From Owenia fusiformis (Eukaryota > Annelida > Polychaeta > Sabellida > Oweniidae), in NCBI GenBank assembly GCA_903813345.2, contig CAIIXF020000007.1, forward strand, positions 1,181,730 to 1,245,729: a stretch of DNA of 64,000 nt, in the 5' to 3' direction. Of this stretch, positions 3,501 through 60,255 are shown in pieces. A program made the position numbers and the translations under genes. The notes under the pieces were generated by a model, which did no database searches, was not told the DNA's origin, and worked only from the letters and a program-made list of their open reading frames with translations. How positions within the stretch are numbered: position 1 is the stretch's first letter; the number at the start of each line of letters is the position of its first letter.

Positions 3501-6500
3501 ACCATCCATATATGAACCACCATATCAGAAAAATTCTGAAGGTTATTTAGCCAATAGAGGCTTTGCTAATCTTCAGATTGGTCCAATTTTAAATATTGCT
3601 TTCCATTTTAATCCCCAGCACATCCTCAATTCTAGCCAGCATGTAAAAGTGAATAAATGTGTGCATGTGCATGTATATTTAAGGTATGATGCTAATCCAT
3701 CCATTAGGGATATAGATGGCTACCTTTCCCTCCACTATGCAGTACAGCATGGGCACTGTGAGACTGTTAGAGCCATACTGAAATATCCCAGGGCTTTCAT
3801 GGTACAGTATTTATAATGTCAATTATGAAACATGTTCATTTCACATGATATTGAAACTTGTTTTCATGTTGTTACAATTCAATATTTCAAGTCATTCATT
3901 TGAGTTATTTATTATCCCACCAAACAAAGTTCAGTAGGGATATAGAGAAGTCGTTTGTCCATCCGTTCTGTAGTCCATGCATTTGTCTGTCTGCTAACCA
4001 ACTGGTTGAGTTCCACCTTTTTAGGCAAATTTCTTGTCGGCATAGGACAATTGCTGAAAAAGAAATCTTCTTCAGTAGTGTTTCTCAATTCAGATTTCCT
4101 TTCCTTCCTCAAATACCAGTCATCAGATTTGTTTTAAATATAGGCTGATGCCTTTTAACTGAGCATAGATTCTCTCTCTACGTTAGAAGGAATTCCTCAT
4201 ATGATAAAGAGTATGTCATGGTCATTGGAGTAGATTTTGACAAAAAGATACAGTCCTACTTCCTGGTAATCATGTAAAAAATAACAAGTGAACTGATAAA
4301 ATATGTTTTGTTAAGTAGGATTCACTATTCTGAGGAGTTGCAGGCTCTTTAACTTAACTACATGAAATGAACACTCAGCAAGGTTTACATTTTTTACATA
4401 AGTTGACACGTTTTGCGGTTGATCATGTACAGTAATAACATTCAGGGATATATAAGTCCAAATGAATCTTTGACTCATTGTTTAGTTTGTCTTTTGAAAT
4501 TGATGCTTACTTTAAGAGATGTTAAAAGACCAGGACAAAAAATCATGATTTAATCTTGAGTCTTCTCATTCAAATTATATGCCCTGTTATTTGGCATATT
4601 TGGAGGTTGTCCCAGTATCCTTCGGATTTGTGTCTAATGTTATCAGATTATTTGGTCGAATCTTTTGTCTGTTGACATACGTATATTTATTTTGATACAT
4701 GGATCTATCTATCATGATATGAGAGGCTATTTGTCATGATAAAAGAGTGCAAACATGTATTTATCAAAACTTGAGGATACTGACATGAAAAGATGTACAT
4801 TGATAAAAATGTTAAACATGCTGATACATGTACTTGCATTATGTACATCCTACGGAAATTAGCACTTAAATCTATAAAACATCACTTCTCCTGTATCTTC
4901 AACAAGATGTGAAGAAACTTCTTTAATTTTTTTACATTTCTTGCAGGGTCTTGCAACAAGTTTGAGATTAACAAATGACCTAGTGATGCAATCCCTTATA
5001 AAAGATGCCATAAATCGACGCCAAGTTGAGATTGTAAACCCAGAACTTTTTGAATGTGCCTTAACAGGAAATGCTCAACAATTATTTTGTGTACTTGAAG
5101 AAGGCGACAGCGTAAATCCATCTGTAAGTAAATCCTAAAATGGCTCAGTTTCTAACTCTCATCCAAAAAGTGCAAATTCTCAGACAATTTATTAATCATT
5201 GATCGACTTGTACACTGTACAGTAAGTGCCATGTCAAGTTCTAAATTGAATAAGGTATAATATTAATGCACCATTTCACATCTTTAAAGGCAAGTAATTC
5301 CTTCAATTGTTTTTTTTCAAGTAGTAATATTTACAGGAAAGATTTGCTGATCTTGATACTGGTAGTTATCACAGATACTTTGGGTTGGCTTCACAGAATA
5401 TAATTGAAAGCAAAAGATGAATGAAATAAAACAGTTTTTTTGTATCAATGTATATATTTAATTTGAATTCTTCTTTGTTAATCACAGAGTGGGGTTGGAG
5501 ACTGGCCTTTATACCTAGCAGCTGAAAATGGCCACATTGACGTCATTAAACTTCTGTATGAAAAAGGTGGCGATGTTCGACGCCAGCACCCTAACACACG
5601 CAACACTCTCCTGCATGTTGCAAGCTCTCGAGGACATTTAGCTGTTGTGAAATACCTGGTGCAATTCTGTAAACAAAATGGCTACAACACTCCATCTGTG
5701 AATGGCCCCTCACACTATCGGGAGCTTCACATAAATGTATTGAACAATCAAGGCAAAACTGCATTACAGTTAGCAGCTGAGAAGGGTATGTACAACTATA
5801 TTAGATTACATCAACTTGATAGACCAGGAACTTACTTAATGATAACATTACATAACACTATGAAGCCTCAATTTGTTCAGCATTAAGCCAGAATCTTACA
5901 TTAGTTTCCCCCAAATGAAGTACTAGAATAAACATGACATGAAATGAAATGAGCCTTAAATATAATCTAAAATTGAAATAGTACTCTGACTATATTATTT
6001 GCTAGATTTGACACTACCTTCAATTATAGAATAAATATATGGATGAATATTTATAAAACTCAGAGCTGGCACAAGTGTGGTTGATAATGAAGGGATTCTC
6101 TTCTTAGCTCTAACTTTACAGACATCACATATGTTTTACCTAATGAAATGTTGCTCTGTCTTTTAAGGCTACAGTAAGATAGTGAAGGAGTTGCTAAACC
6201 ATGGTGCAACTACAGTTATCTTAGGTCCAGATGGTCAGTTATTCTCCTGTATGGTCTACCAAGGCATACAAGTCCTCATTGAGACACACAGGGAAAAGCA
6301 TACCACTGAAATCATGAATTGTATACAAGATACGAAAGCTAGGAAAAGTTTCTCCCAACTGAAAAAGATATGGCAGGTACTAAATACTTTGTATGCTTCT
6401 GCCCCGCCTATTGTATATTTTCATATGTTTATTGTGAATAGATTATTCAACAATTTAAAGCAAATGCTCACATAACAATGAATTCTGTAAAATTACAATG

Positions 6501-14443: not shown

Positions 14444-14843
14444 ATACACATTTCTTACAAAGGAACAGTAATGGATTGAGGCCCTAAGTGAAACAACTTT
14501 TAATTCTGGAATCAGTGATCAAGCCTACATGTACAGTAATTGGGAACTGATCTCTGTTTCTTGTAAGACCAATGGGAAGTGTGGATAATAACAAATTAAC
14601 AAATGCCCGGTGATTTAATTGGCAAATTTCGCGATGATCATTTTTCACGATTTAACCACTATCACGTAAAATGTGAAACAAAATCTCGCACAAAATATAC
14701 TGGGAGTACAGTATATATAACAGAATAATTGTGCCATAACAGAATAATTGTGCCATAACTCATTATTGCTGCAATTTGGTTGTTTTATATAATTAAAATA
14801 ATGAGAAATAAGGAAGTCAAACATAAGAATTGCAAGAACATGA

Positions 14844-15268
14844 ATGTATTGTAAGATATCATTGACTAATGTATTGTAAGACATCACTGGCTTGTGTATT
14901 GTAAGATATCATTGACTTATGTATTGTAAGATATCATTGACTAATGTATTGTAAGACATCATTGACTAATGTATTCTAAGATATCATTGACTAATGTATT
15001 GTAAGACATCATTGACTAATGTATTGTAAGACATCATTGACTAATGTATTGTAAGACATCATTGACTAATGTATTCTAAGATATCATTGACTAATGTATT
15101 GTAAGACATCATTGACTAATGTATTGTAAGACATCATTGACTAATGTGTTCTAAGATATCATTGACTAATGTATTGTAAGACATCATTGACTAATGTATT
15201 GTAAGACATCATTGACTAATGTATTGTAAGACATCATTGACTAATGTATTCTAAGATATCATTGACTA
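14844..15268. repeat. 25-bp satellite, 17 head-to-tail copies
   Basis: The unit GTATTGTAAGACATCATTGACTAAT is repeated 17 times without spacers, starting 400 bp after the ankyrin stop codon. Two linked variants alternate: GTATTG...GACATC and GTATTC...GATATC. The second type occurs at units 6, 10, 13 and 17. Confidence 0.95.
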
Positions 15269-21727: not shown

Positions 21728-21829
21728 ATGCCTGACGGTGTGCAGGAACATGGTACTAACGGATCTCGTGAGGAGGAAATGGTTGATCCACCTATTATGC
21801 AGTTCCACGTTCCAATGAGCGGGAGCGAG
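21728..21829 (+). CDS. PKS coding exon 1 (N-terminal leader)
   Basis: 34 codons from ATG to GAG, followed by gtaagt. It encodes an acidic, flexible leader with no recognised domain. Phase 0 joins it to the exon at 24139. Confidence 0.75.
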
Positions 21830-24800
21830 GTAAGTTCAAATTCGAAGAGATAATCAGGAATTAATTGCGTGTGTAGATATGAGTCATTGGGCCATTTTTT
21901 CAAAAAGTATAAACATGTGAATTTGATGAAAATGTTTCATAGACGTAACTTAGAGCGATTCAGATGTAGCGAGCAAGCTGAACAAAATTGATCTGATTCT
22001 GCCTTTAAGGTTTATCTGACCTATTTAAACGGCTTATGTGTTATGTAAGAAAGAGCGAAATGTGTTCATTATAAATATTTGATACGACATACGAATATCA
22101 ATGTATGTTTGGTCATGTGTACAGGTACAAAATATGTTAGATAAAGTGCGTGTATTTACAGGTCTGTGTATGAAGGCATGGTATTTATTAATTTGATTGG
22201 TATCGTTTTTTGATATAGCTAATACAGAGTATGCTAATAAGGCAGCACTCGTTCAGGCACTATGCTTGTATTCCTTATAAACATGTAGAGGAAGGCTCCC
22301 GAATCCAGTTTTATCTTCTGGAAAAATTCAATTATTTCAATGACAAGCTGATTTATTTCATGATTTCTACCTTTTAAAGCACAAAACAAAACAAAAGCTT
22401 CAACAAATAACAAAGAAGCGTCTGCAACTTTATAATAAATGCTATTAACTAGTGCGTGACTTGACTATTTGATCTGCCGCAGCGCCACTTTCGAGTTACT
22501 ATGACACAGCCGATACAATACCAAAATGTCAACATATCTCAATCTGATTTTAGAATAGTATGTGAAATAAGATATCAAATGCTTCTTAGCAAAACCTGAT
22601 TCATTAATTAAAGATTCAGGTTAAGTATTGACCTTTGGAACAAACAAACTGAATAAAATCAAAAACCCATTAGAAAAATATTTCTGAGAAATTCCAATGA
22701 TATGTCATGACATCCTTGATAGCATTCAAAACCTTCGTTTCATCAGGTGTATGTAAATATTATCCACTTGACATATTACTGTAGTCAAGTGTTTATGAAT
22801 TATTTCGTAGTTTTGAAAAACAATATTATATGTCTATCGTCAATCAACAAAATTAAATCCCATTCGTCATTCTGTACGTCGACTTTGATTGCTATACTTT
22901 TAATATTTATTTCCAAGGTAATTAAACAAATTCGCCGTTACGCATTTATACTGACCATTTATGATATAAAACAGAAATACCAGTTTTTAAAACGAAATGT
23001 AGGGAACCGTGTTTCATGGCACATTAAGAAAAAAATCACCTGTCCACAAGGAGCATTAATTCTAGCTAATAAGGACTCAATACAAAACTTAAAATAATCT
23101 GTAAAATCCAAAACCCCTACTAAATTTTTGCAATGTCACTAAGTATGATTCACTGATTGTTAAAATGATCAAAATGATTCACTAACATGCTAATTATCAG
23201 TAGGTGGAAACCCAAGGCCATAAGAGGTAAGGCCATAAGAAGTAGATTCTTTGTTTTGCGTCCCCTTGCTTGCACAATTTTGAGTAAATCAGAAAAAACA
23301 AACACATGCAAATAGCAATCACAAAGCTCTGAAGGTACCATCAAATTTCGTTCAATCAGAATCATAGGAAATGGCGGATAATTTGATGTGCGCCAAAATT
23401 GACAGTGTTATTGATTACTTGGCATACATTGTGTATTTTCTTATTTGTTACCCTTGAATAACAGCTATGTTTAAATATATTGTATAAAATGTATAGATAT
23501 GATTGTGTTTGTGATCACTGCAAATTGGTATGTCATCACTTTTTATGCCCATAAAATGTATTCATTTCTCAGCAAACAAGTTTGTGTTTTTTCTTGAGTT
23601 TGTGTTTGTTTTCTTTGTACCCTTGCTTGATTTGGATTTAGCCAGGACGCAAAACAAAGGATCTACTACTTATTGCCTAATCTTTATTACCATAATGAGG
23701 AATGTTAAATTAAAAAAATATTCTATATTACTGTATGATCTCCATCGGGAACATGGCCAAATCTAAAATGAGTCGAGATTCTAGATTTTGATCATGATCA
23801 TGACAGCAAAATAAATCATTCAAAAGGCTCACTCATATGAATTATGGGGTCCCTTTGGAGATCACGCGCTATTAAAAGCTAGCGAGCCTTTACTAATAAC
23901 AATTCCTCAACGAGTTCATTTTGCTATCAATGACATTACCTTATGTCGGCATGCAAGTTCAGTGGGGCAGATTAAGCCAAGGTCATTCGTAAGGTCTGAT
24001 AGATGCGGGATACTTTGTTCATTTGTTTGTTTATTTCTTTGTAGTTTTGTTTGGTTGTTTATTTGTTGGATTGGTTCTGAGTTTGTTCATTTGTTTTTTT
24101 GTTTGTTTATATACACCATTATATTGTTTTCTTTCAAGACGTCCGACGCAGGGGAAGAGACAGACACCAATGCCGAAAATGCAGTTATCCCACCAGCTGT
24201 TACAGAAACAGGGACATGGCCAGGGTACAGAAAGATTGCTATAATTGGCATAGGTAAGAAAAACACCTACTATATTCCCCCTCGAACACACAAATCTTGC
24301 AGTAATTCACAGCTTCTCATTGTATGAGCAACATGGGCGGCATCAAAATTGTCGGAGACGCGTTGGGTCGGAATCTTTTGTGATGAAATTCCTGTGAAAC
24401 TTCAAAAATTGCCGTTTTATCAGAAAACAACTATTTATGTGAGTCCTTAAAAAGCTCAGATTGCACCAAATAACGTCTTGGATGAAAAAATATTTCTCGG
24501 GTGATGCTCCCTCGGATCCCGCAAGATAATCAATTGCCGCGCCTCGTATATTTTCTGGAACTACTACCCTTTTTCAATTATGGTCAATACTTTAAAAAAG
24601 TTTATCATGAAACCAAAAATACCTCAATCAGTTTTGTTCCACCAGGGACAAAGTCAGGGGTGACAAATCTTATCTTGATATAGCTTCTGATCCATTTCAG
24701 TCAAGAAATGTGAAAAATACCTTCCATTCAAATTGGGATGTCCACCAGTACCTCATATTGTTCAAGTTAGTTATTCAGTCATTCATAATTGATGCATTTC

Positions 24801-27800
24801 AGGGTAAAGTGTAATTGCATGACTAACTATTTCATTTGCATGACTACTTTGCCACTGGCAAATGTTTTAGGGCTCTATGCTTTTGCATGATGTATAAACT
24901 TACAAAATTAATGTGATATTTCAATAGATTTAGATTTTAATTAAGACTTTAAAGAGCTTAAATCATTTGAAAACATAAATAAAGTATATTACTGTGTCAG
25001 TAAGTTTCAGTACAACAATTGTGTCTTCCTAAAGATACAAAAACATTATTCAAATAGTATGTCGTCAGTAACACGGTAATTATATTACATATTCTTAAGA
25101 TTCATGAAATCTTCATAAGCCTCTAAATGAATGTATTTTAAAGACCCGCAACAATTTTTTGTATCATTGGAAAGCTCTGATACCGTACCTTTGAAAATTT
25201 GAAGATAGATACAACTTCCACTCATGCCATTGCCAAGGAAACGGATGCTTAAATGGCGGCCATCGATTACACATGTTAATAGGCATAAATTATCATAAAG
25301 ATAAGATCAACTCTCAAATACTGAGTGACACTCTCATGTATGCGTCTGGGTGGATCTGTAATAATACGAGTAAGGTCTTATCAAGTGTATTTACAAGTAC
25401 TTTAAACCGGGGCACCTTAACCAGTCAATTGCAATTGAACATTTTGACATTGCCCCAAATATCTGCAACCTTTTTAAACGAGGAAATGTCAATTATTATA
25501 AATAAGAGAGCATTCGATGTATTGAATTGGTTTAAATAAGAACATGTTTTGCTATTCATCTTAGCTTTATCTAAACAAAGTTGCACTAAAATCTGTTTAC
25601 CACTCAACTCTTGAATCAGGTTGGCATGATGACATTGTCAATGCAAGTTCAAAAGTATTTCTGAGAAAGACTTTTATCAATGAAAGAAATTTATCAATGG
25701 TGCAGAAATATTTTAAAGATGATAAACACTTATTTTTATCTAACATAGGTCAGTGATATTGTATACTTCTGATTGTCTATCATATCTAGAAACGATTTAT
25801 AGAAAAATTGATAAATTTCGAAAATAATGGTGTATCCTGAATGCTACCACGGCGTAATCCGATGACATAATATTTTTTTAAATGCTATGAAATCTAACAT
25901 TTCTTATGATTGCATAAATTGAAATGGTTCAAATAACATACTAGTAACTGTTACTTGATCTATTCAATGGAGTTGAAAAATAATATTACATTGTAAAATG
26001 TTGTATTTGATAATCAATAAATCCACAACTTTTGCTACTAAAATAGAGGGAAATTCAAATATTTGAAAATTAAAACACCAATTGTTTTGTATTCAAGAGT
26101 CGACTTTTAAAAATCCCTAAAACTGTCACCACAAATTATATTTAGGTAGTTGAGCCTTTTGAATAAAAAAGTGACTAACGAAGTTGCTGTATCACAGTTC
26201 AGGTAACATTCAGACACTTAATAACTTGATTATGAAAGATAGACACAACGAACAATTGAACAACCTTTATATATTTCGTCAGGGTTGGGGATTTAATTTA
26301 TTTTTGGGACTAGGGATTAATCTATCCGTATATTTGTTTTACAGCACATGGCGTTCATTCTCTAAAGTTTTTGTTTCTCAGTCAATCTGACTGAAATTTT
26401 AACTTAGTATACCTAGATTATTCATACATTTGAATCTCAAGTTATAATGAAAAGCTTCTTGAAGAAAATAGTTATAGTTGCTATAGTCACACGAGTCGGG
26501 GGGGGGACGCGGAGCAGGCAAAAGGGATTTGTTTTGTTTGAACGTTCACAATTTTTCATTTTGTCCTGTTTATTTTACTAAAAGTATCTCAAGGGTATAG
26601 GTGTACAGAATGGGTTCCGCCATGTGTTTGAGGAATGGGTAATAAACAGCAGAGGTATATACTTATAGACCATGATATACACTATTTTGAACACCTATAC
26701 GCTTGAGATACTGTAAGTAAAATAAGCAGGGGAAAATAAAGATTGTGAACATTCAAACAAAACAAATCCTTTTTTGCCTGCTCCGCGTCCCCCAGACTCA
26801 TGTTTTTCTTCAAGGATCTTTTCATTATAACTTGATATTCAAATGTATAAATAGTGTAGGCATACTGAGTGAAAATTTCAGCCAGATTGACTGAGAAACA
26901 AAAATTTTAGAGTACTTTTGCAGAAATTAATGAACGCCCTTTATATTATATATTACACACAAGGAAGACGGAGGTCACAATCGAATTTCAATATGATTGA
27001 CATCTCTGAATTCTGGCCCAATTGAATTAATAATTCATATCCATTTTACTTCAAACTTGTAATGTCTCATTTATAAAAGTTGCTAATTGCTAGATATATA
27101 TGGCATAAAAACATATCAAGACTCTTAATGTGAAACATGCTATCATGAGTTTACATATTTTTCTCAACGATGATTTCGATTTTAGGTTGTCGAATGCCAG
27201 GGGATGTAAACGGTACTGATGCTTTCTGGGACGTCATTTCGAAAGGGAAAGACACAATAACTGACATCCCTCCAGACCGCTGGTCGACCGATGCCTTCTA
27301 CAGTCCAGACCAGTCTAAGTCAGGTACCCACGTGACAAAAAGATGTGGATTCATTAAAGGTATAGATCACTTTGATCACACATTTTTTAAAATTTCTCCT
27401 CGTGAAGCCGCTATGATGGATCCACAACAGCGTCATACTTTAGAAGTGACCCAGGAAGCATTTGATGATGCTGGGATTGATCCAACAACTCTAGACAAAC
27501 GATGTGGAGTCTACCTGGGAATAGGAATGATGGACTATCCTACCATGATCGTTAATGATAAAAATCTCATAAACGCCTACACTCATACTGGCGTTGCGCA
27601 CAGTGTGGCGGCAAATCGTATTTCATATGCATTTAACCTGAAAGGGCCAAGCTTTGCTGTTGATACTGCCTGCGCAGCTTCAATGACAGCCCTCCATCTT
27701 GCATGCAGCGGTCTTTGGAACAAAGAATGTGAAGTTGCAGTTGTGGGGGGAAGTAATGTCCTACTAACTCCTGAAATAACAGTTGGATTCAGTCAACTTG

Positions 27801-30800
27801 GAGTCCTTTCCCCAGATGGAAAAAGCTGCCCATTTGATGCCGATGCCAAAGGTTATGTCAGAAGTGAAGGATTCGGAACGTTGATTCTCAAACCACTAGA
27901 TGATGCTATTGCGGATGGAGATCATATCTACTGCTCAATTCTTGGAACAGCAATAGGGGATAATGGACAGAATCAAAGCATAACAATGCCATCTACCACA
28001 GAGCAGCTTCAGATGATTAACACAACATACTCAAGGTACAACATTCCTATGGAAAATGTTTCCTACGTAGAGGCACATGGCACTGGAACCCCCGTCGGTG
28101 ATCCCTTGGAGGCCAATGCAATAGGCAACGCCTTCAGACCACACAGACTGACCAGTGACAGACCTCTGCCAATAGGTTCCTGTAAGAGTAACTTTGGGCA
28201 TATGGAATGTACAGCAGGTGCAGTAAGTACCATTAAAGGCGCCCTCATGTTGCATAATAGAATTCTTTGCCCATCTACCAACTTCGAAAAGATAAACCCA
28301 GCAATAGACTTGGACAGTCTAGGTATCAAAATACAGCAGGAAGTAGAACCTCTGACTAGGAACAGGAAACATATCATGGGTATCAACAGTTTCGGCTTTG
28401 GTGGTGCATTAGCTCATGCAATCATTGAAGAATATACAGCCGAGGATACACCATGTGGATCGGCTGGATGGCGATTCGGAGAAGATGACACAGAAGGACT
28501 GTCGATTGCAATACCCCTTTCAGCAAAGAACGATGCTGGGTTAATTGACCTAGCCAAAGAATGGTTGAAATTTAAATCAGAAAAAGATGCACAGGTCATC
28601 GTGTCGTGGCTGGCCACTCGCCGACCTCATTATGAGAGCCGAGTAATCCTGATAGCCAATTCTGGAAAAGATTTTCGTGACAAACTGCAATGTTTCATAG
28701 ATGGAAGACCACAAAGTTCAATCTCAGGAAAAGCAACTACAGGTGAAGGTGGAAACAAAAGGGTATGCTTCGTCTATCCAGGGCAAGGCCAACAGTGGGC
28801 AAAAATGGGCGTCCCTTTATACAAGAAAGAGAAGGTCTACCGCGATTGTATCAACCTATGTGATATGATATTCAAGAAACTGAGTGGCTGGTCTCTTCTC
28901 GAAAAGCATGGTGTCTTTACAGATCAACCAAAAGGAGGTCGCTATCTCTATCAAGTCATCAACGACACAGATGTTTCTCCCCCTGCTATTGTATTCCACC
29001 AGATTGCCCTGACGAAGTTATGGCTGTCGTGGGGTGTCTATCCACAAGCAGTTGTGGGACATAGCTTGGGTGAAGTAGCGGCAGCATTTGCATGTGGTGG
29101 TATAACCCTAGAGGAAGCAATTGCTATAGCTCTGTACAGAAGTGAGGAACAGGCGAAGCTGAGTGGAAATGGGGGCATGGCTGCAACTAGAATATCTGAA
29201 GTGGAGGCTAGAGCATTTTGTGAGAAACATGACGATATATATGTCGCCTGTGTCAACTCTCCATCTTCAACAACTATAGCAGGAAACCTGCTTACAATTG
29301 AAAAACTTTCGAAAGAAAATCCTACTACTTGGAAGCAACTTCGAGTCAATTGTGCCTACCATACCCAATATATGGAACCAGTTCAAGAAGGTTTCACCAA
29401 ACGACTGAGCAAAAAACTACGAAATAAGGTGAAACCAAAGATCCCAATGTTTTCTACTGTGACTGGTGACAAAAAAACAGGCGGATTTGATATTAAGTAC
29501 TGGTGGGATACCATCAGGAAACCAGTTTTATTCCGACCTGCAGTTGAAAAACTGTTAAATGAGAAATTTGATGTCTTTGTCGAGTGTGGAGCATCTGCCA
29601 CCCTCTTGACATCAGTCAAAAATTCAGCACAGTCTTTACACATGCCATACCCAATCTGTATCACATCTGGACAGCGAGAACAGGACAATTTAAACAGTAT
29701 GTTAACTGCAGTTGGCATGCTCCATGTGAACGGTGTGGAACTAGAATGGGGGAACATAACTGGCAACTGTCAACAATGGGCTCCATTGCCACGCTACCCC
29801 TGGCAACATCAAACACATTGGGCTGAAGCGGAAACCAGTAGACTGCGACGATTGGGCCTCGTTCAAAGTAATTTCAAAAACAGCAATGGGAAAATATCGC
29901 TGAAGGAATTCCCATTTCTAACTGATCACAAGGTCTTGGGCAATGTTACCTTTCCCGGTGCAGGGTACATTGAATACATCACACAGGCATGTATCGTGGA
30001 CGATGAACATGTATCATTCTCTGATATAAAATTCAAGAACGTGCTTGTTTTTGGTGAACAGAACAAAGAAAAAGATGTCCACTTAGAACTATCCAGGAAA
30101 GGTGATCGGGTATCAATTTCCACCGGCAACACAGTCCACATGGAAGCTATCATTAATACGACTAAATCAGAGGCGGGTTCTCCTTGTCAGTTTAAGTTTG
30201 AAGAGACAGAGTCTAGTTTGGCTGGTTCTCTAGAAGTTGGCAAAGGAGACATATATGCTAACTTCGAACGTGTTAAGCTTGAGTATGGACCTGCCTTTCA
30301 AACACTACAGAAGGTAACATTATATGATGGTAAAGCGGTAGGAGTGATTCAAGGGGAGCGATACCACGAGGAACGAATCTGCAGCAACATTCTTGATGGA
30401 TGTTTTCAACTTGCTCTGGTTGCGAGTCAAACTAATTCATCTGCTTACATACCTGTTAGCATTGGCTCACTAGAACTATTCTGTCCTAAGGTCACATCGG
30501 GCTCCCCACTCCAAGCTTATGCCAAAGTAACAGATGTAAACTCATTCACACTGACTGCAAATATCAGTGTATTCTCAGAGAATGTAGAAGTTATCAGAGT
30601 CACAGAAATGGTAGCCCAGAATATGGATGGAGCAACACCTGCTGTAGACATCAATGAATGTGTCTACACCACATCCTGGCAACCAATAGCTGCAGACCTG
30701 GGGACAACTTATATTGCAAACGATATATTCAATCCCAAGAACCTCAAGGAAAAGTATTCTGAAGAAATGAATCACATTGAATCCCTTGATCCCTACATGA

Positions 30801-33800
30801 GAACAATCAGAGGAATTTGTGCAAGCTTTGCAAGAAGAGCATTGGAGTCGGTCCCTGAACGTGAATACCATGAGCGAAATGGGCTGTATGTAGCAAGGCT
30901 GAAACAGATTATCAAAGAAGATGACGTGTGTTTGCCTATTGACGAGGTTGGAAACAAGATGCGGGATATTGAAAACGCCTGCCCAGCCTTCAAGACTGAA
31001 ATCAAACTATTTGGAACGCTGGGAGAAATGCTACCAGAAACTCTTCGAAATCCAAACAAAGCTGTTGAAGTGTTGTTTGGAAAAGAGTTTCTTCCAAAGT
31101 ATTTCATTGATTCGCTTACCACTAGATTGTACTACCAAACAGGCTCAGAGATAGTTAGTAAGGCAGTTGATCAGGCATTAGAGTCGAAGAAGATTGTACG
31201 AGTCTTAGAAGTTGGTGGTCGCATGGGTGGACTGGCTCAGTATCTTCTTAAACCACTCCAGAGTTTAATCAACGATGGGAAAGTTGAATATACATTCACC
31301 GACCTGTACTCAGTGTTCTTTCCACATGCTCAACAGACATTAGGCGAGTTCTCAGGAGTTCAATACAAAGAACTCGACATTGAACAGAGTGTTGCAACTC
31401 AAGGATTTGTCCCTCATACCTATGACATCGTCGTATGTATGGACACTCTTCACTCAGCAGTGGATTTGGAAAATGGATTATCCAATATGAAAGACCTCTT
31501 GTGTCCAGGGGGTTGGCTGGTGATGTATGAAGCAACTAATTCAGCTAACATTGCAGAAATCACATTTGGATGTCTTGAACTTTGCTGGGTGTTTGATGAC
31601 TTCCGAAAAAATACGTGCTGGCTTGACAAGATGGGTTGGGAGAACCTACTGGAAAACAATGGATTCAAAGATGTGGTGGGTGTATCTACACCGAACGAGT
31701 TTTTCCATTCTATCATTATCGGGGTGAAGACAGATGATAAAGACATTCCTGCATCCAGCAATACGGTGGTACATTCAGAACAACATTTAGACAGTGAGGG
31801 ATGGAGAGATCTTCAATGTGAAATAACCTCCAACAGAGCAGCCCTATACAGTCACGTAGACAGTTCATGTCATTCAATTGATGTGATTCACCTTTGGGAG
31901 AACACGAGTACCCTTGAGGACCTTGTAGATATAGTAAAACACATGTCTAACAGTCCAAACTGCAAGAGCCTCTCAGTTGTAGTAGAGGAAGATAGCATTA
32001 GTGGATCCATTCCAACTGGTTTCCTGAGAGTTGCTGTGAATGAAATAAAACACCTTCCAATGTATACATTCAGAGTAAAAGGACTTAAAAGAAAAGATGC
32101 AATGTCTCGGGTTATTGACATCATCCGAGATGGAAGTATTCCTGACTCAGAGATTATGATTGAAAATTGTAAAATAAGTGTCCCACGAGTTATGAAGTCA
32201 GGTATGCCAACCCAGGGTACGGTGGAATCATTAAGATGGTGTATTGACTTTGATGGTTCTCAAGCAATTGACAACTTATCATACAGATCGTTGCCACAAA
32301 AACCACTGTCAATGGGAGATATACGGATAAAGGTATCTGCAGCTGGGGTCAATTTTAAGGATGTCATGATGGCGACTGGTAATCTTAAAGATCTCAACAT
32401 TGCCCCTCAGTTTGGTATTGAGTGTTCGGGTGTTATCACAGAATCACATCCATCGGTCGGAAACGTCAAAGTTGGTGATAGAGTCGTAGCATTTGCAAAT
32501 AACTGTTTTGCATCTGAAGTAGTATGTGACAGCAGACTTGTAGCCAAGGTACCAAAAGCGATAGACATAGATGTTGCAGCAGGAATGGGGATCGTGTTCT
32601 CAACAGCTTACCATGCCCTTGTTGAGCGTGCAAATATCCAAGAAGGGGAGACTATTCTAATTCATTCTGCATGTGGAGGTGTTGGTCAAGCTGCCATACA
32701 GATAGCATCCCTGTATGGAGCGAAAATTATCTGCTCTGCTGGTACAGATAATAAGCGTAACTTTCTGAAGGAACACTATGGAATTGAACATGTGACTAAT
32801 TCGCATTCTCTCAAATTTGTTGATGACATTATGAAGTGGACCGCCAACAGGGGAGTTGACGTTGTACTGAACTCACTGAGTGGAGAGTATATCAAGAAAG
32901 GAATGGATGTTCTTGCACATGGTGGACGTTTCTGTGAGATCGGAAAGCGAGATATCCTTGAGAATTCAGAATTAGAGCTGAACACATTCCTTCGAAATAA
33001 ATCATTCCTTTCTGTCCAGCTTGATGTCTTGATGGTTAACAAGCCAGAGAAAATGACAAAACTGCTCGAGAAAGTTATGACACTCTTGGATAATGGAGAC
33101 ATAAAACCAGTACAAACAGAGACCAGAAATATATCCCAGTACAAGGAAACACTAAGATGGATGATGACAGGGCAACACATTGGTAAAGTGGCGTTAAAGA
33201 TACCCGTGGACTATGCTCCCACTAATGTTCTACCGCCTACAGACATGTTTACTGATGACGGCTGTTACATGGTGACAGGGGGCCTTGGTGGTGTAGGTCT
33301 AGCTGTTGCTCGGTGGTTGGGCAACAAGGGAGCGAAATACATCGGCTTGTTATCAAGGCATAAAGCGTCAACATTCCAACAGCGATGCACGATACAGCAC
33401 CTTGAGAATATCGGGTGCAAAGTAATTCGACTACAAGCCGATGCGGGAGATAAAACTGCACTATCAATTGCCATTGGTAGCCTTGAAGAAGCATCGAACA
33501 AACCTTTAAAAGGTATATTTCATCTGGCTGGAATCATAGATGATTCGAACATTCAGAAACTCACGAATGATCAAATTAGACGGACACTGAACTCCAAAGT
33601 TGATGGTGCAAGAAACCTACACGAACTTACTCAAAACAAAACATTGGATCATTTCGTAATGTTCTCGTCAATATGCACAGTAATAGGGAATATGGAACAA
33701 GGTTCATACTGTGCCGCCAATGCCTACCTGGACAAGCTAGCTGAGCACAGGCGGTCGGTTGGTTTACCTTCATTGTCAGTTCAATTTGGGGCTATACGAG

Positions 33801-34903
33801 GAGCTGGATTCCTCGAGAGGAATTCCAAGGTGACGAGCATTATGGAGACCAGGGGTCTGTTGTCGCTTCACATCAACGAGTGTATCACCTTTCTGGAGAA
33901 AGCTATGAGGTGTCCCACTACTCCTGCAGCCATAGGATTTTCGAACTTGGTAAGCAATACTTCATCGCAAATCAATTATATTATTGAAGACATGACGTTG
34001 CAATGACATATTTTCAAACAATATTCGACTGATCTTATGGTATTAGTAGCTGATCTTATGGACGATAGATGATTTAAACAAAAATTTGATATGGCAATGA
34101 AGTCGAGGGTTCTTAATCTTATCCTATAGTTCCTACCGATGTAAAAATTTAAAATATACGCATATTTAATGTAGAAAAGATAATATGGTTGTAATGATGA
34201 TAATTTTGATAATACTAATCTTTCCACGGTCTGCATTTATGATAAATTAAGATTCATCTTTACCAGTACTCTATAATATCCTGAGATACTGTTGTATTGT
34301 ATCTATACAATTTATAAGCATCAACAAGCCTGAACTTATGATGTTTTCCCTCACATTTCAGGACTGGAATCTTGTACAGGGGATGAGCCACCCTCGCCAT
34401 ATGCAATTTCGTCACCTCCAAAAGGTCCAAAATCAAGGAAAATGTAAGTTCTAAATATATTTATGTTTAATAGTGTAGTGGTAACGAATACGACCCATTT
34501 TTAGAAAATTCGAACATTGTTTTTCTCGTGTACCACCGTTTGTCGAATTTATGATGATAATTGTTTTCTCCCATTCGCTACGTTTCTGATGCTGTTTCTT
34601 TACTCCCTCGTCTTATATTTACTATGATATTTGTTTCCAGTGAAATGCCAGAGTAGCAGAGAGGAACTTCAAGAAAAACTTCTTACCAAGCTATCGGAGA
34701 TCTTATGCACACCTGTAGAAACAATAGACATTAATAAACCCATGACGGACTACGGTATAGACTCTCTCATGGCAGTAGAAATGGTCCAATGGATCAACAA
34801 AGAGTTGGGACTAAATATGTCTCAGCTGGACATACTCGGGGGAATATCAACTGGATTGTTATTAGACAAAGCCCTCGATGGGAAAGTTGGATTATCTGGC
34901 TAA
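21728..34903 (+). CDS. Type I highly reducing polyketide synthase, no thioesterase (2441 aa)
   Basis: Coding exons: 21728-21829, 24139-24253, 27186-33949, 34362-34443, 34641-34903; all junctions GT-AG with matching phase. ATG 21728 has A at -3. Domain order with key residues: KS about 66-490 (Cys235 in DTACAAS, His370 in EAHGTGT, His411 in NFGHMECTAG); AT 580-880 (Ser699 in GHSLGE, His798 in CAYH); DH 960-1220 (His987 in HKVLGNVTFP, Asp1143 in LDGCFQ); methyltransferase-like 1290-1560 (motif I GGRMGG at 1416); structural KR half 1590-1720; ER 1760-2070 (HSACGGVGQAA at 1899); KR 2080-2300 (GGLGGVG at 2104, Ser2234, Tyr2247 of YCAAN); ACP with Ser2396 in GIDSL. The chain stops 45 residues after that serine, so there is no thioesterase or reductase. 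KS phrases such as GCRMPG, DIPPDRW and MDPQQR are PKS-like rather than those of animal fatty-acid synthase. Likely cytosolic, iterative, making a fully reduced chain; product unknown. Confidence 0.95.
21951..22009. mobile_element. Minimal inverted-repeat element related to 17252-17574
   Basis: gcgattcagatgtagcgagc and tgatctgattctgccttta face each other with about 15 bp between; both resemble the ends of the element at 17252. It lies in PKS intron 1. Confidence 0.5.
22010..24138. other. PKS intron 1, remainder
   Basis: AT-rich. It contains an inverted-repeat pair (23228-23305 and 23601-23679) and a T/G-rich tttg run (24016-24110) just before the acceptor at 24137-24138. The reading frame near 22747 looks random. 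Confidence 0.6.
23228..23679. mobile_element. Inverted-repeat element in PKS intron 1
   Basis: Arms of about 77 bp: 23228-23305 holds agtagattctttgttttgcg and the inverse, cgcaaaacaaaggatctact, lies in 23601-23679. The interior is about 300 bp without coding capacity. Confidence 0.65.
24139..24253 (+). CDS. PKS coding exon 2 (leader and first KS strand)
   Basis: It starts in phase 0 after ctttcaag and ends ATTGGCATAG before gtaagaa. It encodes a Thr/Glu-rich linker and YRKIAIIGIG, the first strand of the ketosynthase; the split glycine codon is completed by the exon at 27186 (GCRMPG). Confidence 0.85.
24254..27185. other. PKS intron 2
   Basis: 2.9 kb of AT-rich DNA between the first KS strand and the rest of the KS. 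Apart from a large inverted repeat (26350-26939) I see no gene in it. Confidence 0.7.
26350..26939. repeat. Large inverted repeat, arms about 270 bp, next to the KS exon
   Basis: The left arm (26350 to about 26630) holds tttgtttctcagtcaatctg, a G-run with gacgcggagcaggcaaaagg, and cacaatttttc. The right arm (about 26675-26939) holds the inverse: cctgctccgcgtccccc and cagattgactgagaaacaaa. The loop is about 45 bp. Its right end lies 247 bp before the KS exon. Confidence 0.85.
27186..33949 (+). CDS. PKS coding exon 3, single 6764-bp exon for KS through KR
   Basis: The reading frame is uninterrupted from the acceptor at 27184-27185 to the donor gtaagc at 33950. It begins with the last two bases of a glycine codon and ends in phase 0 after GGATTTTCGAACTTG. 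It holds 2254 full codons: nearly all of KS, AT, DH, methyltransferase-like, ER and KR. The frame stays open 19 codons into the next intron, to a stop at 34004-34006, but the good donor and the downstream ACP exon favour splicing. It is visibly richer in G+C than the flanking introns. Confidence 0.93.
34362..34443 (+). CDS. PKS coding exon 4 (KR-ACP linker)
   Basis: 82 bp between cacatttcag and gtaagttc, encoding DWNLVQGMSHPRHMQFRHL and onward. It restores frame between the KR exon (phase 0) and the ACP exon (phase 1). Confidence 0.85.
34641..34903 (+). CDS. PKS coding exon 5 (acyl carrier protein)
   Basis: It starts after tttgtttccag and ends with TAA at 34901-34903. It encodes a carrier domain with the phosphopantetheine site YGIDSLMAVEM and stops right after the last ACP helix. 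The in-frame sequence preceding it (from 34631) is intronic. Confidence 0.92.
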
Positions 34904-36619: not shown

Positions 36620-38510
36620 GGCATGCTAAAGAGACTTCTCCGTGGCATTTTTCTTTGTTCCTTTTTATTTTGAATTCTTAATACCATAACATTAACTGAC
36701 TGCTCAATATGCAACTTTTAACCACTTTGAATTTTATATGATCATTTGAGTTGTCACGTCAATAACATATGGAAATAAAAATGATAAGATGTCAAAAGAG
36801 TAGTTTATCTTATTTGTAAAAAATAAAAAGAGCACAAATGTATACAACATGTCCCCACCAATGGGTCATCCTATATACTGCAAATTTTTCATCCTGAATG
36901 CCTAACACCAATCAGTTGAAAAGACAAGTTTTTAAGAGAAAAATCCGTTCTAGATTTTCATACTAAGAACCAGCCCTGAAAATTTGAAATTGATCCGTCA
37001 AACAGTTAACCAGAAAACGCGTAGACAAGACTTTACAGACAAGATTTTAGGGCGGAAAATCCAGAATGACCGCTTTGACATTTACCCAGAATGCCAAAAA
37101 ACGGTTCACTTCGAGATTTTCATACTAAGAATCATCCCTGAAAATTTGAAATTGATCTACCAAACGGTTCACCTGAAAACGCGTAGACAAGACTTTATAG
37201 ACAAGGTTTTAGGACGGAAATTCCAAATTGTCTCAATATTTTGCACCGGTATAACCATGCGCAGTAGAATAAATCACAGGGTTACCCTAAATTGTAGAAA
37301 CATGAATATGTTTCTTATAATTAATTAATTCATATATCCCAAGGATTTCACCCGTTCCCTTTCTGACCAAACCTTGTTTTATCTTTGATTTTTTACAATA
37401 AAATAAACTACTCTTTTTGACATCTTATCATTTTTATTTCCTTACTTTATTGACGTGAGAACTCAAATGATCAATGGGAAAACAATGCTAAACTTGCACA
37501 ATGAAATAGGTATTCTAGCAGGCCTAGGAAAATATGGCTAGAAAAAGATGCTACACCTAAGGGCTACAGGTGGACAAACTATTCCCCTTGAAAAGTATTT
37601 TAAGGGTGAGATCACGGAATTCATGATTGCATTGAAAAGCTTTGAATGCTAATTTTCAAGAATGGATGTATTACCAGAGAAGAAAATATGAAGAATTCAT
37701 ATAGTTTATTTCGAGTGATTATTTAGTGTCAAGTTTTGTCTCTAGTGACAGCATGTTACTGAATATCTCATCAAGTGACTTAAACTACAACAGCTAAAAT
37801 AAGCATACCGAAATATTATAATTCAGTATGATTCGGAGAAGGGGATTACAGTTATAAGGGGTTAGCAATTTATTTATTATCTCAATTCTTGAATTTGAAG
37901 ATCTTCTGCTATATTGTTTAATATGTATTATAATAGATCAATTTGATGGTAAGAACTAGATATAGTATGTGATATGATCGATTTTACCTTTTTGTCGTCA
38001 TTGCTGAGGAATACAATAATACCATTCCAATTAATGATAACTCACTTATTGTATTACTTGTGCTTGATACACATGCTGGAAGAAATGCTTTTAGAATTAG
38101 TAAACCATTACCAAAACTATGGTTACCCTGTAGTAGTGAAAGGCACATTAAAAATGAATATCATCCCCTTCAATCTATTTGTACAGGTTTTTCTGATTAT
38201 TTCACATTTTTCTATATTTTGCGTAACAAGGACGGTGAATTTTCTTCATTTTTCGTCAAACATTTCGTCTTACCAATATTTATTATATCTGTCAATTTCA
38301 AGAAAATCGCGCCGCTACGTTTGAAAATAATTCAAATTATGTCGTTTTTCCCATTGAGCTCCATTATAAAAATGGAATTTTCAAACTTAATATTTTAAAA
38401 TTCTACGTGGTGAAAAGTTGCATATTGAGTAGTTAGTTAATGTTATGGTGTAAAAAATTCAAGAAAAAATGCCATGGAGAAGTCTCATTAACATCTCTTT
38501 AAACGAATCT
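36620..38510. mobile_element. Nested inverted-repeat structure
   Basis: Outer arms: about 36620-36735 (gagacttctccgtggcattt, accataacattaactgactg) pair inversely with about 38395-38510. Inner arms: 36739-36816 (aaaaatgataagatgtcaaa) pair with about 37395-37475. Inside the inner pair is a pearl-like fragment (36835-37255). No transposase frame is evident. Confidence 0.65.
36835..37255 (+). repeat. Fragment of the pearl-like tandem element (two core units)
   Basis: It begins agcacaaatgtatacaacat then gtccccacca, like the start of the element at 51596, and carries two copies of the core phrase cctgaaaatttgaaattgat ... gtagacaagacttta. The microsatellite and terminal hairpin are missing. Confidence 0.75.
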
Positions 38511-41674: not shown

Positions 41675-44600
41675 ATGACCGGTAAGAGTGTTTGCATCAT
41701 TGGGGCAGGCGTTAGTGGGCTAGTTGCTATCAAAGCATGTTTGGAGGAGAAACTACAGGTCACGTGTTATGAGCAACATGACAAACTAGGCAAGTGACAC
41801 TTGATGTTTTATGACATTGTTTATTAAAAACCAGCACATAATATGAATAATATTTTTGAAGATTTAATTTCGTGAAATTTTTTAATGCGATCCTATTATA
41901 TGTTTCACAAGAGTTGTCTAATATAAAGTAGAATGCATCAAGCCTCTTGTTCCTCGTATATTAAAGAGCGGGGGGGGGTCTTGAAAGGGAGGTACACAAC
42001 TGCTCGGTGCAAGTGAGAGGGGGTGCGTAAACGATCTTTTAATGTTGCGCCGGGTAAGTAATGTTACTGATCATTGTTGCTTGGTTGTATTGATTGATTG
42101 ATTGAATATGTATTGATTGTTGGTTGCTGGTGCTTCATTTTTACCAATTAATCAACATCTTGATTAATAGGTGGCGTTTGGTACTACACCGAGGAAGTGA
42201 GACCGAACCAAGGTCCAAGTGCGTATGCCACATTGGTGACCAATTCGAGCAAGGATATGATGGCGTTCAGTGATTATCCCATGCCCCCACAATATCCCCC
42301 GTATCTTCCATGGGAGAAATTTACAGAAGTGAGTTTCATATTATAAAATGCTTTGGTCTCAAAAGGGCGGCCATAAAATTTACCCGGGAAAATCTATTCG
42401 TATGCGGCCTATTATTGCGGTCAATATATATTTGTAATTATATAAACATCGTTTTGTTTACCATGGTAATACGATAGAACAACATCCTCTTTTCAGTACT
42501 TACAAAACTATGCAGATCACTTTAACCTTGCAAAACACATAACATTTAACACGAAAGTCGTAAGTGTCGATCCAGTGGAAGACAAGGAAGGACGATGGAA
42601 AGTATGTGTATCAAATGGGGACAGCAAATCGGAGTTCGAAACCAAATTCTTCGATCATGTCATAGTCTGTGCTGGTTTCTTCAAAAACCCGGTAATTCCC
42701 GAAATCCCGGGACTGCAAAACTTCAAGGGCAAAGTAATGCACACACATTCTTACCGATCGCCCGAGGTCTTTAAAGATAAAACAGTCCTCGTTATTGGGA
42801 ATGCAAATTCTGCATCAGATGCGGCTACCGATGCTGCGACATACGCTAAAAAGGTACGGGAATATTTCATTGGATTGTTTGTTACATGCTTTTTCACATT
42901 ATATGATTAAATACCCTCTAGTAATTTGTGAACACTCATTTCATATACAAAAGATTTCATTCCATGTGGTTTCAATTAAATGTACTGCCATAAATCCCCA
43001 TCAGTATAATTTTAATACGGGTTGGTCATGTTGTTATACAGGCTTATGTGAGCATTGGTGATGGAACATGGGTTCTGTCGAGATCAGCTCAGCAAGGACT
43101 TCCGCGAGATTTCATGCTTCGACGAGTCCTCATGAATTTCGCCCCACAAAGTGTGGTCAGTCGCATCCTCATGAAAGACTGTAATACTCGCTTCAATCAT
43201 GAAGCGTTCGGTCTCCAATCCACACAGCGTCCAATGTATGGTTCAGCTGTCATGGTCAACGATGAAATCTCATATAAGATCATCTCTGGGAAGCTTCAAG
43301 TTAAAGCAACCGTAGTGGAGTTCACAGAACACGGAGTGAAATTGGAGGATGGATCAACGCTTGATGGAATTGACATGGTCTGCTTCGCCACCGGGTTTAA
43401 GGTCGATTTCTCCTTCATGAACGAACAGATATTGAAAGGTTAGGACAAAGACCCTGAATTGTTTTGCTTTTGTTATATACTAAACTATTATCTGTTTAAA
43501 ATATCACGGGTTTAGGTGCTTCCATTCATTTCATTTCCACCTTGTGATTCTATGAATTGTCTTCAAGCGTTATATTAATGTTACCATGTCGACACAATGT
43601 TTTAACAATATTTAACATGCCAAACTTTTGTAACTACCTATTTACCAACTCAAACTTACAGTAATCGTTATCAATATAGTGATTTTTACAATTTCTTAAC
43701 ATTCTAAGCACATTTTTAGATTAACGAATGGGTAATCACCAATAAGGTTATATCTGAATTTCAGTTACAAATAAGGAAATTAACCTGTACAAGATGGTCT
43801 GGCCCATTGAGCAACGAGTTCCCAGTATTGCCGTGGTTGGCTGCTTCTCCACTGTCGGGGCTCATACCCCCATCATGGAGCTACAGTCATACTGGGCCGC
43901 GCGAGTCTTCAGTGGCAAATGCAAGCTACCACCTAAAACAGATATGAAAAAGTGGATCGATGAAACGATTGAGACACAAATAAAGAATTATGGCAAACTC
44001 AAAATAAAGGTATTGGGATATTTTACGTTGATCATCTGTATGAATAATAAATAATGCAATGAGATGTACAGTACTAGATTGATTTCTATCAATTGTCTTT
44101 CATAAAGTTTCACCCTATTTGCTTATCAATATTACAATAAGATATTACATTGGAAATTATGGGAACTAGATTAGATTAGACTCTATAGTGTGGTTGGATG
44201 CCTTAAAAATAGAATATGATGGAAAATTAAAATTGTGTGACTCCTATGATATCGTGTATATTGCATATGTTAATGTAACTGCTTTCAAATGCTTTTTCAA
44301 TGAATAAAAAAGGAATAAAAAAAGTTTCAGTTAAATTTTTGCTTTTCAGTTACATCAACTCCCCTATCGAGACTCCATTGCCGAGGAAATAGGAGCTCTT
44401 CCCAACATTAAGTCTCTTCTTCTTAGAGATCCTGCTATGGCGATGCGATGTTTCTTCGGACCAGCATTTCCCTATCAATACAGGTAAATTCTGAAAAAAA
44501 ATAAACTAGAAACGGAAACATAAACATAAACAACTCTGTGATCACTTTTATTTTCCACTTTTATGTCAATAGTTTAAATTGCGAACGCAGCAAATATACT

Positions 44601-50551: not shown

Positions 50552-53500
50552 TTATCGCCAAGTGCTTATTCGGGTTATGATCAGTCCTATCAATGTCATG
50601 ACTATTGATACCAAGGGTCCCCCAGAGGAACGTGAACAATCGTCGTCATCGTCAAAGATCCAGCCATCTTCCTCGCATCGTTCTTTTCTTTTACACCAAT
50701 CACAGTCACACGGAGCCGGTGACGTAACACGTGATGTCACTGAAATCGTCGTTGACTCGTCTGATTCTGTAGTAAATTTTGTGTTGCTTTGTTGAAGAGT
50801 AATTCTTCCTTCTATCCCAACAATAATTGGAGACATCTTGGAGAAGTGCTCGATTACTACGCTTGAGTCCAAATTATCTACAATTATAGTTGCAAAGCAT
50901 GATGCCATAGTAATTTTTGTCCTTTAAAACACTCTTGGGAATGTTGCGGTTGTACAATGTTGTGTTGGATATTTGTGTAACTCTATGTTAACGCTATTTG
51001 GTCTTTTTCCTCTATTCCTACATAAATTTACTCATATACTACATTCAGTACAACTTGTTATTGTCAATGCGTTTTCATTTGACCCTTAACATTGTGTTCA
51101 CATTGTTCATTTTGATGATTCTAGGCATTACCAGGTTAATACGTATACTCACTTTGTTCCTCGTGGAGTGTTTTGTTCTCTCTTATCATAGCGTATCCAT
51201 CGCCTCCTTCTGCTAAAAATGTTGACATTGCGACCTTATACACTTTGTCATTGTCTAGAGGCTCATATACTGGAGTGTCACATTCAGCACATCGTACCAG
51301 GATTGACACCACTCGAGACCCAACTGGTTGAGAAGTGTCAGCAACGATCTTCAAACCTGTCAAATGAAGGGATAATACACAATATACACTTTAATTGACT
51401 TATTCAATGAGATATTATACCAATGTCAACGATATTACATTGTAAACACTTGAGCTGAGACAAAATACTAAGAAAATTCTAGAGTGTTTGATACGATTAT
51501 ACCATTCTAATGGGTTGACCTACGTCTTGATATATGACAATAGGTAATTTAGATCACCTTGCGTATTTCCAAGAATCGAAATTCTTAGACAAGAACACAA
51601 ATGTGTACAAAATGTCCCCACCAAGTAGTGATCCCGTGAAATGGTTATCCTGAAAATGAGTAGACAAGACTTTACCAACACAATTTGAGGACGGAAAATC
51701 CAAAGTGGCCACCTTAAAATTTACCCAGAATGCCAAAAATTTAGTCAGTTCTAGATTTTCATACTAAGAACCACCCCTGAAAATTTGAAATTGATCCGTC
51801 ACACAGTTAACCAGAAAACATGTAAACAAGACTTTACAGACAAGATTTCAGGATGGAAAATCCAAAATGGCTGCCTTGACATTTACCAAGAATGTCAAAA
51901 AACTAATCTGTTTGTAGATTTTCATACTAAGAATCATCCCTGAAAATATGAACTTGATCTACCAAACGGTTCACCTGAAAACGGGTAGACAAGACTTTAC
52001 AGACAAGATTTTAGGACAGAAAATCCAAAATGGCTGCCTTAACATTTACGCAGAATGCAAAAAAAGTAATCAGATGTAGATTTTCATACAAAGAATCATC
52101 CCTGAAAATTTGAAATTGATCTATCAAACCGTTCACCTAAAAACGCGTAGACAAGACTTTACAGGCAAGATTTTAAGACGGAAAATCCAAAATGGCTGCC
52201 TTGACATTTACCCAGAATGCAAAAAAACTAATCAGTTCTAGATTTTCATACTAAGAATCATTCCTGAAAATTTGAAATTGATCTACCAAACAGTTCACCT
52301 GAAAACGAGTAGACAAGACTTTACAGACAAGATTTTAGGACGGAAAATCCAAAATGGCTGCCTTGACATTTACCCAGAATGCCAAAAAACTAATGAGATC
52401 TAGATTTTTATACTAAGAATCATCCCTGAAAATTTGAAATTGATCCACCAAACAGTTCACCCATGAAAACGCGCAGACAAGACTTCACAGACAAGATTTT
52501 AGGACCGAAAAATCCAAAATGGCCGACAATAAAAAAGTCCTTATGAGTTTTTGCTGATTTCTTTTTACAAAATTATCACATATAACTACTGTTAACAATA
52601 AAGTAGACTTTTACAGCAAAGTACATCTGAAATTATTTATAAAGCTACTAAATAGTTAAAGTATGAAAACTCAAAAACACCATTCAATATGATACAAAGT
52701 ATTATCGCTCGCTAACTTTTCTTAAGACATTCAAAATGGCTGACATGACTGAGCTAGCAGGTCCAAAACCTAATCAGATCTAGAATGAAGTGAGCTGAAC
52801 AAGATGTTAAAGTTTTACAAGCAACTGTGAAGCAGTTTTCTTAAAGTTTGCAGACAAGGATTTTAGCATTTGACTTCAAAATGGCCGACAGGAAGTAGGT
52901 TTCGAGTTAAATTTTTTTCGTCCACATCTATAGGCACTCATAAGTTATTCCTGAAAATTAGAAGGTGATACCTGTAGCGGTTTTGGAGAAAACTGCCGGA
53001 CGTACGGACGGACAGACAGACAGACAACCAACCAGACAGACGGACGGACGGACGCGCCTAGGACGACAATATGGCCCCACACTATGTGGTGGGGACATAA
53101 AAACGAGGACTATGAATTCAAAGGTCGGGCATTTGAAAAATGACCAAATGCCATAGGTTGCCAAAAATGAGTATTCGTCGGAACATATCTCTCACATCTA
53201 CATTGAACATTCTTTCGCTGCTCCTACAAGAGGTAATGAATTCTCACCTGCCACTTGTAGGAACCTTGGATGACCAATAAGAGACACTGAATGCTCCATG
53301 ACGTCCTTTAGAGTTGTTCCTTTAAGTCCAACTATGTCAATCGTGTTTCTGAATGGAAGAACATGTTGTACTGCACCAATTGTCACTGGACCTTAAAAGA
53401 CGAATATCAGTTACTTGTTGACCGTAGGCAACTTTTACCGAGAGGGAGCTTTTGCAAAGGGAAGCTTCTTGATAGTTTTGGCTAAAACGATCATGGGAAA

Positions 53501-60160: not shown

Positions 60161-60255
60161 GTTTATATCTTTAAGTTTAAAATACTACGAATTAATAGTC
60201 TAGCTAATAGTAGCTCTGGCGTTCTGTACAGACAGAAAACGTGTAGACTTGCTGA

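Follow-up and report, generated by a model that had tools for sequence, protein, structure and literature searches.

What kind of enzyme does a large, spliced polyketide synthase (PKS) gene of the annelid Owenia fusiformis encode, does the gene belong to the animal, and how would a synthase that stops short of any release domain free its product? The gene lies in a stretch of 64,000 nucleotides (hereafter the window), which corresponds to positions 1181730-1245729 of contig C7 (CAIIXF020000007.1) in an assembly of 498 Mb and 525 contigs (GCA_903813345.2). We consider it likely that the gene encodes a host-encoded, probably iterative, reducing animal type I PKS that belongs to a family of three genes.

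The gene is real, complete and host-encoded, and ordinary in kind. Its five exons on the plus strand (Table 1) form one reading frame with a single terminal stop, all introns are GT-AG, and reading frames, splice sites and paralogues concur on the five-exon model, which upholds the coordinates and frame given in an earlier note made from the sequence alone. The big exon contributes an open frame of 2285 codons in DNA that is otherwise 34% GC, with Pfam E-values down to 5e-81; hence this frame is not a product of chance. Of the four introns, two are close to the N-terminus and the other two to the C-terminus. Exon 1 is backed by the window alone, given that a counterpart was looked for upstream of both paralogues and not found. 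Intron 2 holds a long inverted repeat (26360-26912; 109-base arms, 90% complementary, with further arms nested) that resembles a hairpin-shaped mobile element.

Pfam places the domains in a single chain in the order ketosynthase (KS), acyltransferase (AT), dehydratase (DH), methyltransferase (MT), enoylreductase (ER), ketoreductase (KR) and acyl carrier protein (ACP). The earlier note had called this a complete animal type I PKS; the MT between DH and ER (PF08242, E 2.6e-13) had been overlooked. The ACP in exon 5 matches both PF00550 (E 2.9e-12) and PF23297, the ACP of a highly reducing PKS (E 3.9e-13). Motifs that we take to be active-site motifs of KS, AT, DH, ER, KR and ACP are found in all three copies with small variations, and those of the reductive domains are thus kept, as had been noted. 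The prediction of a saturated or largely saturated chain was too strong, since in certain reducing iterative PKSs the KR, DH and ER are described as acting on selected intermediates only (PMC6334511), and the MT that had been overlooked may introduce methyl branches.

Two paralogues of the same build are located at 35.44 Mb on contig C10 and at 19.57 Mb on C7 (hereafter the C10 and C7 copies), with 69.8% and 59.8% identity, respectively, to the big exon of the window copy. The junctions and phases of exons 2-5 are common to all three copies. Between the window and C10 copies the nonsynonymous divergence (dN) is 0.18 and the synonymous divergence (dS) 1.12, a dN/dS of about 0.16, and purifying selection acts on the gene; in the comparison with the C7 copy, synonymous sites have reached saturation.

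In the mechanism that we propose, the AT would load mainly malonyl-CoA and the KS would repeat condensations, while KR, DH and ER would reduce the beta position in some or all cycles. The MT, which has a C-methyltransferase fold, may add alpha-methyl groups from S-adenosylmethionine (SAM) in some cycles, and the finished acyl chain would stay on the ACP until a separate hydrolase, an acyltransferase or ring closure frees it. The choice of extender leans to malonyl-CoA by motif rules: the GHSLGE and CAYH motifs of the AT (SAYH in the paralogues) align to GHSQGE and YASH of EryAII. The AT of the duck enzyme ApPKS is reported to prefer malonyl over methylmalonyl approximately 64-fold (PMC6334511).

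The methyltransferase and its decay in one copy

Among solved structures, the MT is closest in sequence to the C-methyltransferases of CurJ (E 6.2e-32), PsoF and LovB. A structure model built from 14 aligned sequences (three from this genome and 11 of 12 bacterial segments) has a mean pLDDT of 82, and its best match is CurJ (Z 32.9, root-mean-square deviation 3.4 over 340 residues), including the N-terminal extra domain of the fold; the corresponding part of human FASN matches less well (Z 19.7, 3.1 over 256 residues). A CurJ-like fold does not in itself demonstrate activity. The window and C7 copies keep a His-Glu dyad (His266 and Glu292 of the modelled stretch), 26 residues apart, and the catalytic dyad described for CitS, His2067 and Glu2093, has the same spacing (PMC11579551). 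These two copies are also identical at 18 of 18 MT motif columns (LEVGGRMGG, FTD, DTLH and YE), compared with 129 of 206 other columns. The other KS genes fetched from the genome yielded no detectable relative of this MT (best E 1.7).

Two substitutions weigh against activity. The SAM loop LEVGGRMGG departs from GxGxG in that its middle glycine is an arginine, a position that is glycine in all 12 bacterial segments and in the five PDB matches shown. In addition, the asparagine three residues before the His is an aspartate; the 12 bacterial segments all have asparagine, and this residue is called strictly invariant among fungal enzymes (PMC13300579).

The C10 copy keeps 11 of the 18 motif columns, with the SAM loop, the Asp of FTD and the dyad His changed, and its MT has decayed while its other domains are kept. 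For the MT, a comparison of the three sequences gives a C10 branch of 0.52 and a window branch close to zero (estimate -0.02); for the stretch before the MT the C10 branch is 0.64. For ER and KR the C10 and window branches are similar (0.11 versus 0.10 and 0.15 versus 0.13), but for ACP, KS and AT the C10 copy is faster (0.30 versus 0.03, 0.16 versus 0.07 and 0.23 versus 0.13), and over the whole gene it is 2.0-fold faster. A relaxation confined to the MT was therefore rejected; it is strongest in and before the MT.

A putative MT activity in the window and C7 copies stands at about even odds. The alternative, which has nearly an even chance and is compatible with the rest of the proposed mechanism, is that the MT is a structural pseudo-domain, as in animal fatty-acid synthase (FAS) and the echinoderm enzymes SpPks1 and CrPKS, so that the chains would be reduced and unmethylated. 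The two substitutions, where all bacterial segments have Gly and Asn, argue for it, as does a C10 copy that lost its MT motifs and keeps its other domains; in the strobilurin PKS, a C-methyltransferase with SAM-motif mutations was judged probably inactive (PMC6158276), and pseudo-MTs are described in echinoderm PKSs (PMC11414698). The full identity of the motif columns, the retained dyad and the greater similarity of the model to CurJ than to human FASN argue against it. With somewhat less than an even chance, the window and C7 copies would instead have a functional C-methyltransferase whose SAM loop is altered, and would build reduced, methyl-branched chains as fungal PKSs do, from malonyl-CoA plus SAM, and not from methylmalonyl-CoA as EcPKS1 does; the C10 copy would have lost methylation and make the unbranched counterpart. 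One genome with three copies that differ in the state of the MT offers a natural comparison for asking whether any animal PKS methylates with SAM, and such an enzyme, if real, would be notable.

Position of the ketosynthase and host origin

The KS tree comprised 37 rows, among them 26 of 80 bacterial loci (picked for spread) and two of the four other PKSs of this genome; its animal rows were own-genome copies and PDB entries, the human FAS row was partial, and rows for animal FAS-like PKSs (AFPKs) were absent. Of its 34 inner branches, 14 are well supported. The three copies group together (100/100) on a long branch, outside another 100/100 clade that is made up of the FAS of this genome, a second FAS-like gene on C9 and human FAS. 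This agrees with the earlier note, which had set the KS apart from FAS and proposed a KS phylogeny as the check: a position inside animal FAS was not found. Two of the four other own PKSs make up a third clade, weakly placed near LovB (83/94). The second FAS-like gene (C9:34.695-34.715 Mb; L009, L010), whose KS groups with FAS, includes 8 kb that read N. The four further PKS genes (C4:22.87 Mb, C4:22.91 Mb, C9:0.52 Mb and C11:19.87 Mb; L005, L006, L011-L017) have a KS divided among small exons, and each has a single big exon of about 2000 codons. In the parts of two of the four big exons that were scanned we saw AT and DH, with the start of a KR in one, and no match to MT or ER.

Scores against the PDB set point in the same direction as the tree, with 373 bits for the KS of CurL, 315 for Dictyostelium PKS16, 284 for LovB and 242-249 for FAS; in the top row, 7zma, two KS domains scoring about 300 apiece are added together. 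Some observations weigh against the proposed assignment. In the best tree the KS lies outside FAS, but a clade of the three copies with FAS is not rejected by the approximately unbiased (AU) test (p 0.094); and the two 3'-most introns differ from the pattern of mollusc PKS genes, which have few introns, gathered at the N-terminus (PMC10764717). Clades with the other own PKSs (AU p 0.141), with Dictyostelium (one PKS; 0.111) and with LovB (0.306) are likewise not rejected, and the grouping of the three copies with Planctomycetes in the best tree, at 80/48, is unsupported.

It is very unlikely that the gene is an AFPK or a FAS that lost its thioesterase (TE). Such a reading draws on the AU result for FAS and on the description of AFPKs as TE-less, with offloading mostly unknown (PMC10764717). 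Against it stand the placement outside the 100/100 FAS clade, in a tree without an AFPK row, the 373 bits to CurL compared with 242-249 to FAS, and whole-protein scores of 452 bits for the AFPK EcPKS1 compared with 557-572 for FAS and 566 for LovB. Published FAS and AFPK genes are, in addition, described as intron-dense throughout (PMC10764717).

It is highly improbable that the gene reflects contamination or was recently acquired from a bacterium, protist or symbiont. The KS does score higher with bacterial PKSs than with FAS, and the domain order recurs in a single frame at an Acidobacteriaceae locus, with 29% identity over the length; hence the layout is not peculiar to eukaryotes. A symbiont origin has also been considered for an MT-bearing clade of mollusc PKSs (PMC10764717). 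However, the gene has spliced introns and three diverged copies on two large contigs, and its base composition is like that of FAS: GC content at third codon positions is 0.39 in the three PKS genes and 0.40 in FAS exon pieces, which fits a long stay in this genome. The contig measures 39.8 Mb and also carries FMO and 5'-nucleotidase genes, and the genome has an animal-type FAS. The nearest bacterial KS sequences found, from two Planctomycetes, are 47% identical, in a bacterial scan that looked only for FDHTFFK and EAAMMDP and that a closer relative may have escaped. An old transfer of the gene from another organism may have taken place.

Chain release and neighbourhood

In each of the three copies the reading frame ends right after the ACP, with the stop codon at the homologous position. 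Absence of a TE is therefore a family trait and not the loss of a 3' exon, in line with the earlier description of a protein that ends directly after the ACP without TE or reductase. A genome-wide search with the thioesterase family PF00975 matched three places: the FAS gene on C1, C189:17971-18165 and C10:28124631-28124771. No match was seen near the three PKS genes or in the window, in an exon-wise genome search that weak matches can escape. The matches on C189 and C10 lie away from any KS gene found and are possible free-standing TEs and thus candidates for release in trans. A further 3' exon encoding a TE, which the earlier note named as one finding that would overturn it, or one encoding a reductase, has next to no chance of existing, given the homologous stop codons, which bear on it indirectly, and the fact that PF00975 matches at the FAS gene and not near the PKS genes.

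Release in trans would be the most likely route, and animal PKSs without a release domain have been described, with a trans-acting partner suggested (Sabatini et al. 2018, PMC6334511). We agree with the earlier note that neither the product nor the release route can be read from the sequence. Its statement that the window has no hydrolase gene holds for thioesterases, as far as PF00975 was searched, but not in general, given a 5'-nucleotidase gene at about 55-60 kb on the minus strand.

Neighbouring genes were sought among 26 stop-to-stop open reading frames (ORFs) of at least 110 aa. Pfam was run on 15 of them, two shorter ORFs and the ACP exon; the other 11 were the PKS exon (scanned separately), seven antisense ORFs inside it, the exon-2 ORF and two others. 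Besides the ACP, the only matches, from a scan that small exons may escape, were to ankyrin (one of the two ORFs under the cut-off), FMO, metallophosphoesterase and 5'-nucleotidase. FMO was tried as a linked tailoring gene and rejected: none lies beside the two paralogues (of 74 FMO exon matches listed as best candidates, none is on C10 and all those on C7 are the window's own), and no conserved cluster was seen. Hence we take the neighbourhood to be ordinary. No tRNA was found in the window.

Three arrays were also seen. The first (51649-52523) has about five units of 162 bases, and its translation resembles by eye the ORF at 36954-37328, which indicates a repeat family on the 3' side of the PKS. 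The second is a tandem array of 17 copies of a 25-base unit (14843-15268), and the third is a complex tandem array with units of 126-262 bases (56632-57822).

Table 1. Features of the window, in window positions.
Feature	Position	Strand	Remarks
PKS gene	21728..34903	+	ATG to stop, five exons, 2441 aa
Exon 1	21728..21829	+	34 codons from ATG; weakest exon, no counterpart found in paralogues
Exon 2	24139..24253	+	Ends in KS start (KIAIIGIG); junction and phase identical in both paralogues
Exon 3	27186..33949	+	6764 bases, KS to KR
Exon 4	34362..34443	+	82 bases, length equal in both paralogues
Exon 5	34641..34903	+	ACP and stop codon
KS domain	27182..28288	+	Pfam, PF00109 and PF02801; first codons of open frame fall in intron 2
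AT domain	28769..29740	+	Pfam; GHSLGE and CAYH motifs
DH domain	29888..30595	+	Pfam
C-methyltransferase-type domain with N-terminal part	30656..31726	+	Pfam, structure model; modelled stretch
SAM loop	31205-31231	+	LEVGGRMGG
MT dyad His	31451-31453	+	
MT dyad Glu	31529-31531	+	
ER domain	32315..33196	+	Pfam; ADH_N, ADH_zinc_N
KR domain	33260..33799	+	Pfam
FMO exons	41684-44487	+	About 7 kb downstream of PKS, same strand
5'-nucleotidase gene	about 55121-60184	-	Metallophosphoesterase and C-terminal domain matches
Ankyrin-repeat ORFs	3325-5886	+	

Comparison with known systems

With the exception of sponges and ctenophores, all animal phyla examined are reported to have PKSs (Lin et al. 2024, PMC10764717). 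TE-less animal PKSs are widespread, and few have known products. We found no publication on this gene in the literature searched, which left most subscription journals outside, and a published annotation may exist.

By their descriptions, the echinoderm enzymes SpPks1 and CrPKS are alike in being animal type I PKSs with the order KS-AT-DH-cMT-ER-KR-ACP and no TE (Li et al. 2024, PMC11414698). They differ in a KR that is likely inactive, in a cMT called a pseudo-domain and in aromatic products, whereas the PKS of the window keeps the KR Tyr and the MT His-Glu dyad. Duck ApPKS and related vertebrate PKSs, again compared by description, share KS, AT, DH, ER, KR and ACP, lack a release domain and stand apart from FAS, and animal PKSs of this kind are reported to lie closer to bacterial PKS than they do to FAS (Sabatini et al. 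2018, PMC6334511); an MT is not among the six domains listed for them in the passages cited.

Mollusc PKSs, also compared by description, are alike in their few introns and differ in intron placement, with two of four near the 3' end in the window PKS. Among them, mo-clade 5 is described as the one clade with a likely active MT, sister to amoeba PKSs and possibly symbiont-derived (PMC10764717). Set against these traits, the window PKS has a kept dyad and an altered SAM loop, and its clade with the one amoeba PKS is the Dictyostelium alternative given above. With its MT, its introns and its place in a large animal contig, the window PKS is relevant to the published doubt whether such genes belong to the animal or to a symbiont; membership of the doubted clade is not implied.

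The fungal highly reducing PKS LovB shares KS, AT, DH, MT, KR and ACP as well as the absence of a TE, and matches in KS and MT. However, its KS is 39% identical, and it requires a separate ER, LovC (PMC7870829). A clade with it is absent from the best tree but not rejected (AU p 0.306). The sacoglossan AFPKs EcPKS1 and EcPKS2 are animal, TE-less and similar in domain set, but are described as having a FAS-like KS, a methylmalonyl extender and an inactive ER and as not using SAM (PMC7280274). Animal FAS differs in the C-terminal thioesterase that the window PKS lacks, and in the best tree its clade excludes the KS of the window PKS.

Domain order, absence of a TE and distance from FAS have thus already been published for animal PKSs, and the features that had seemed striking in the earlier note are not new. 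What remains of interest is the MT, lost in one copy out of three. With its one-chain domain order, no release domain and a KS outside the FAS clade, the window PKS reads as an ordinary member of the published non-FAS animal type I PKSs of the SpPks1 and ApPKS kind.

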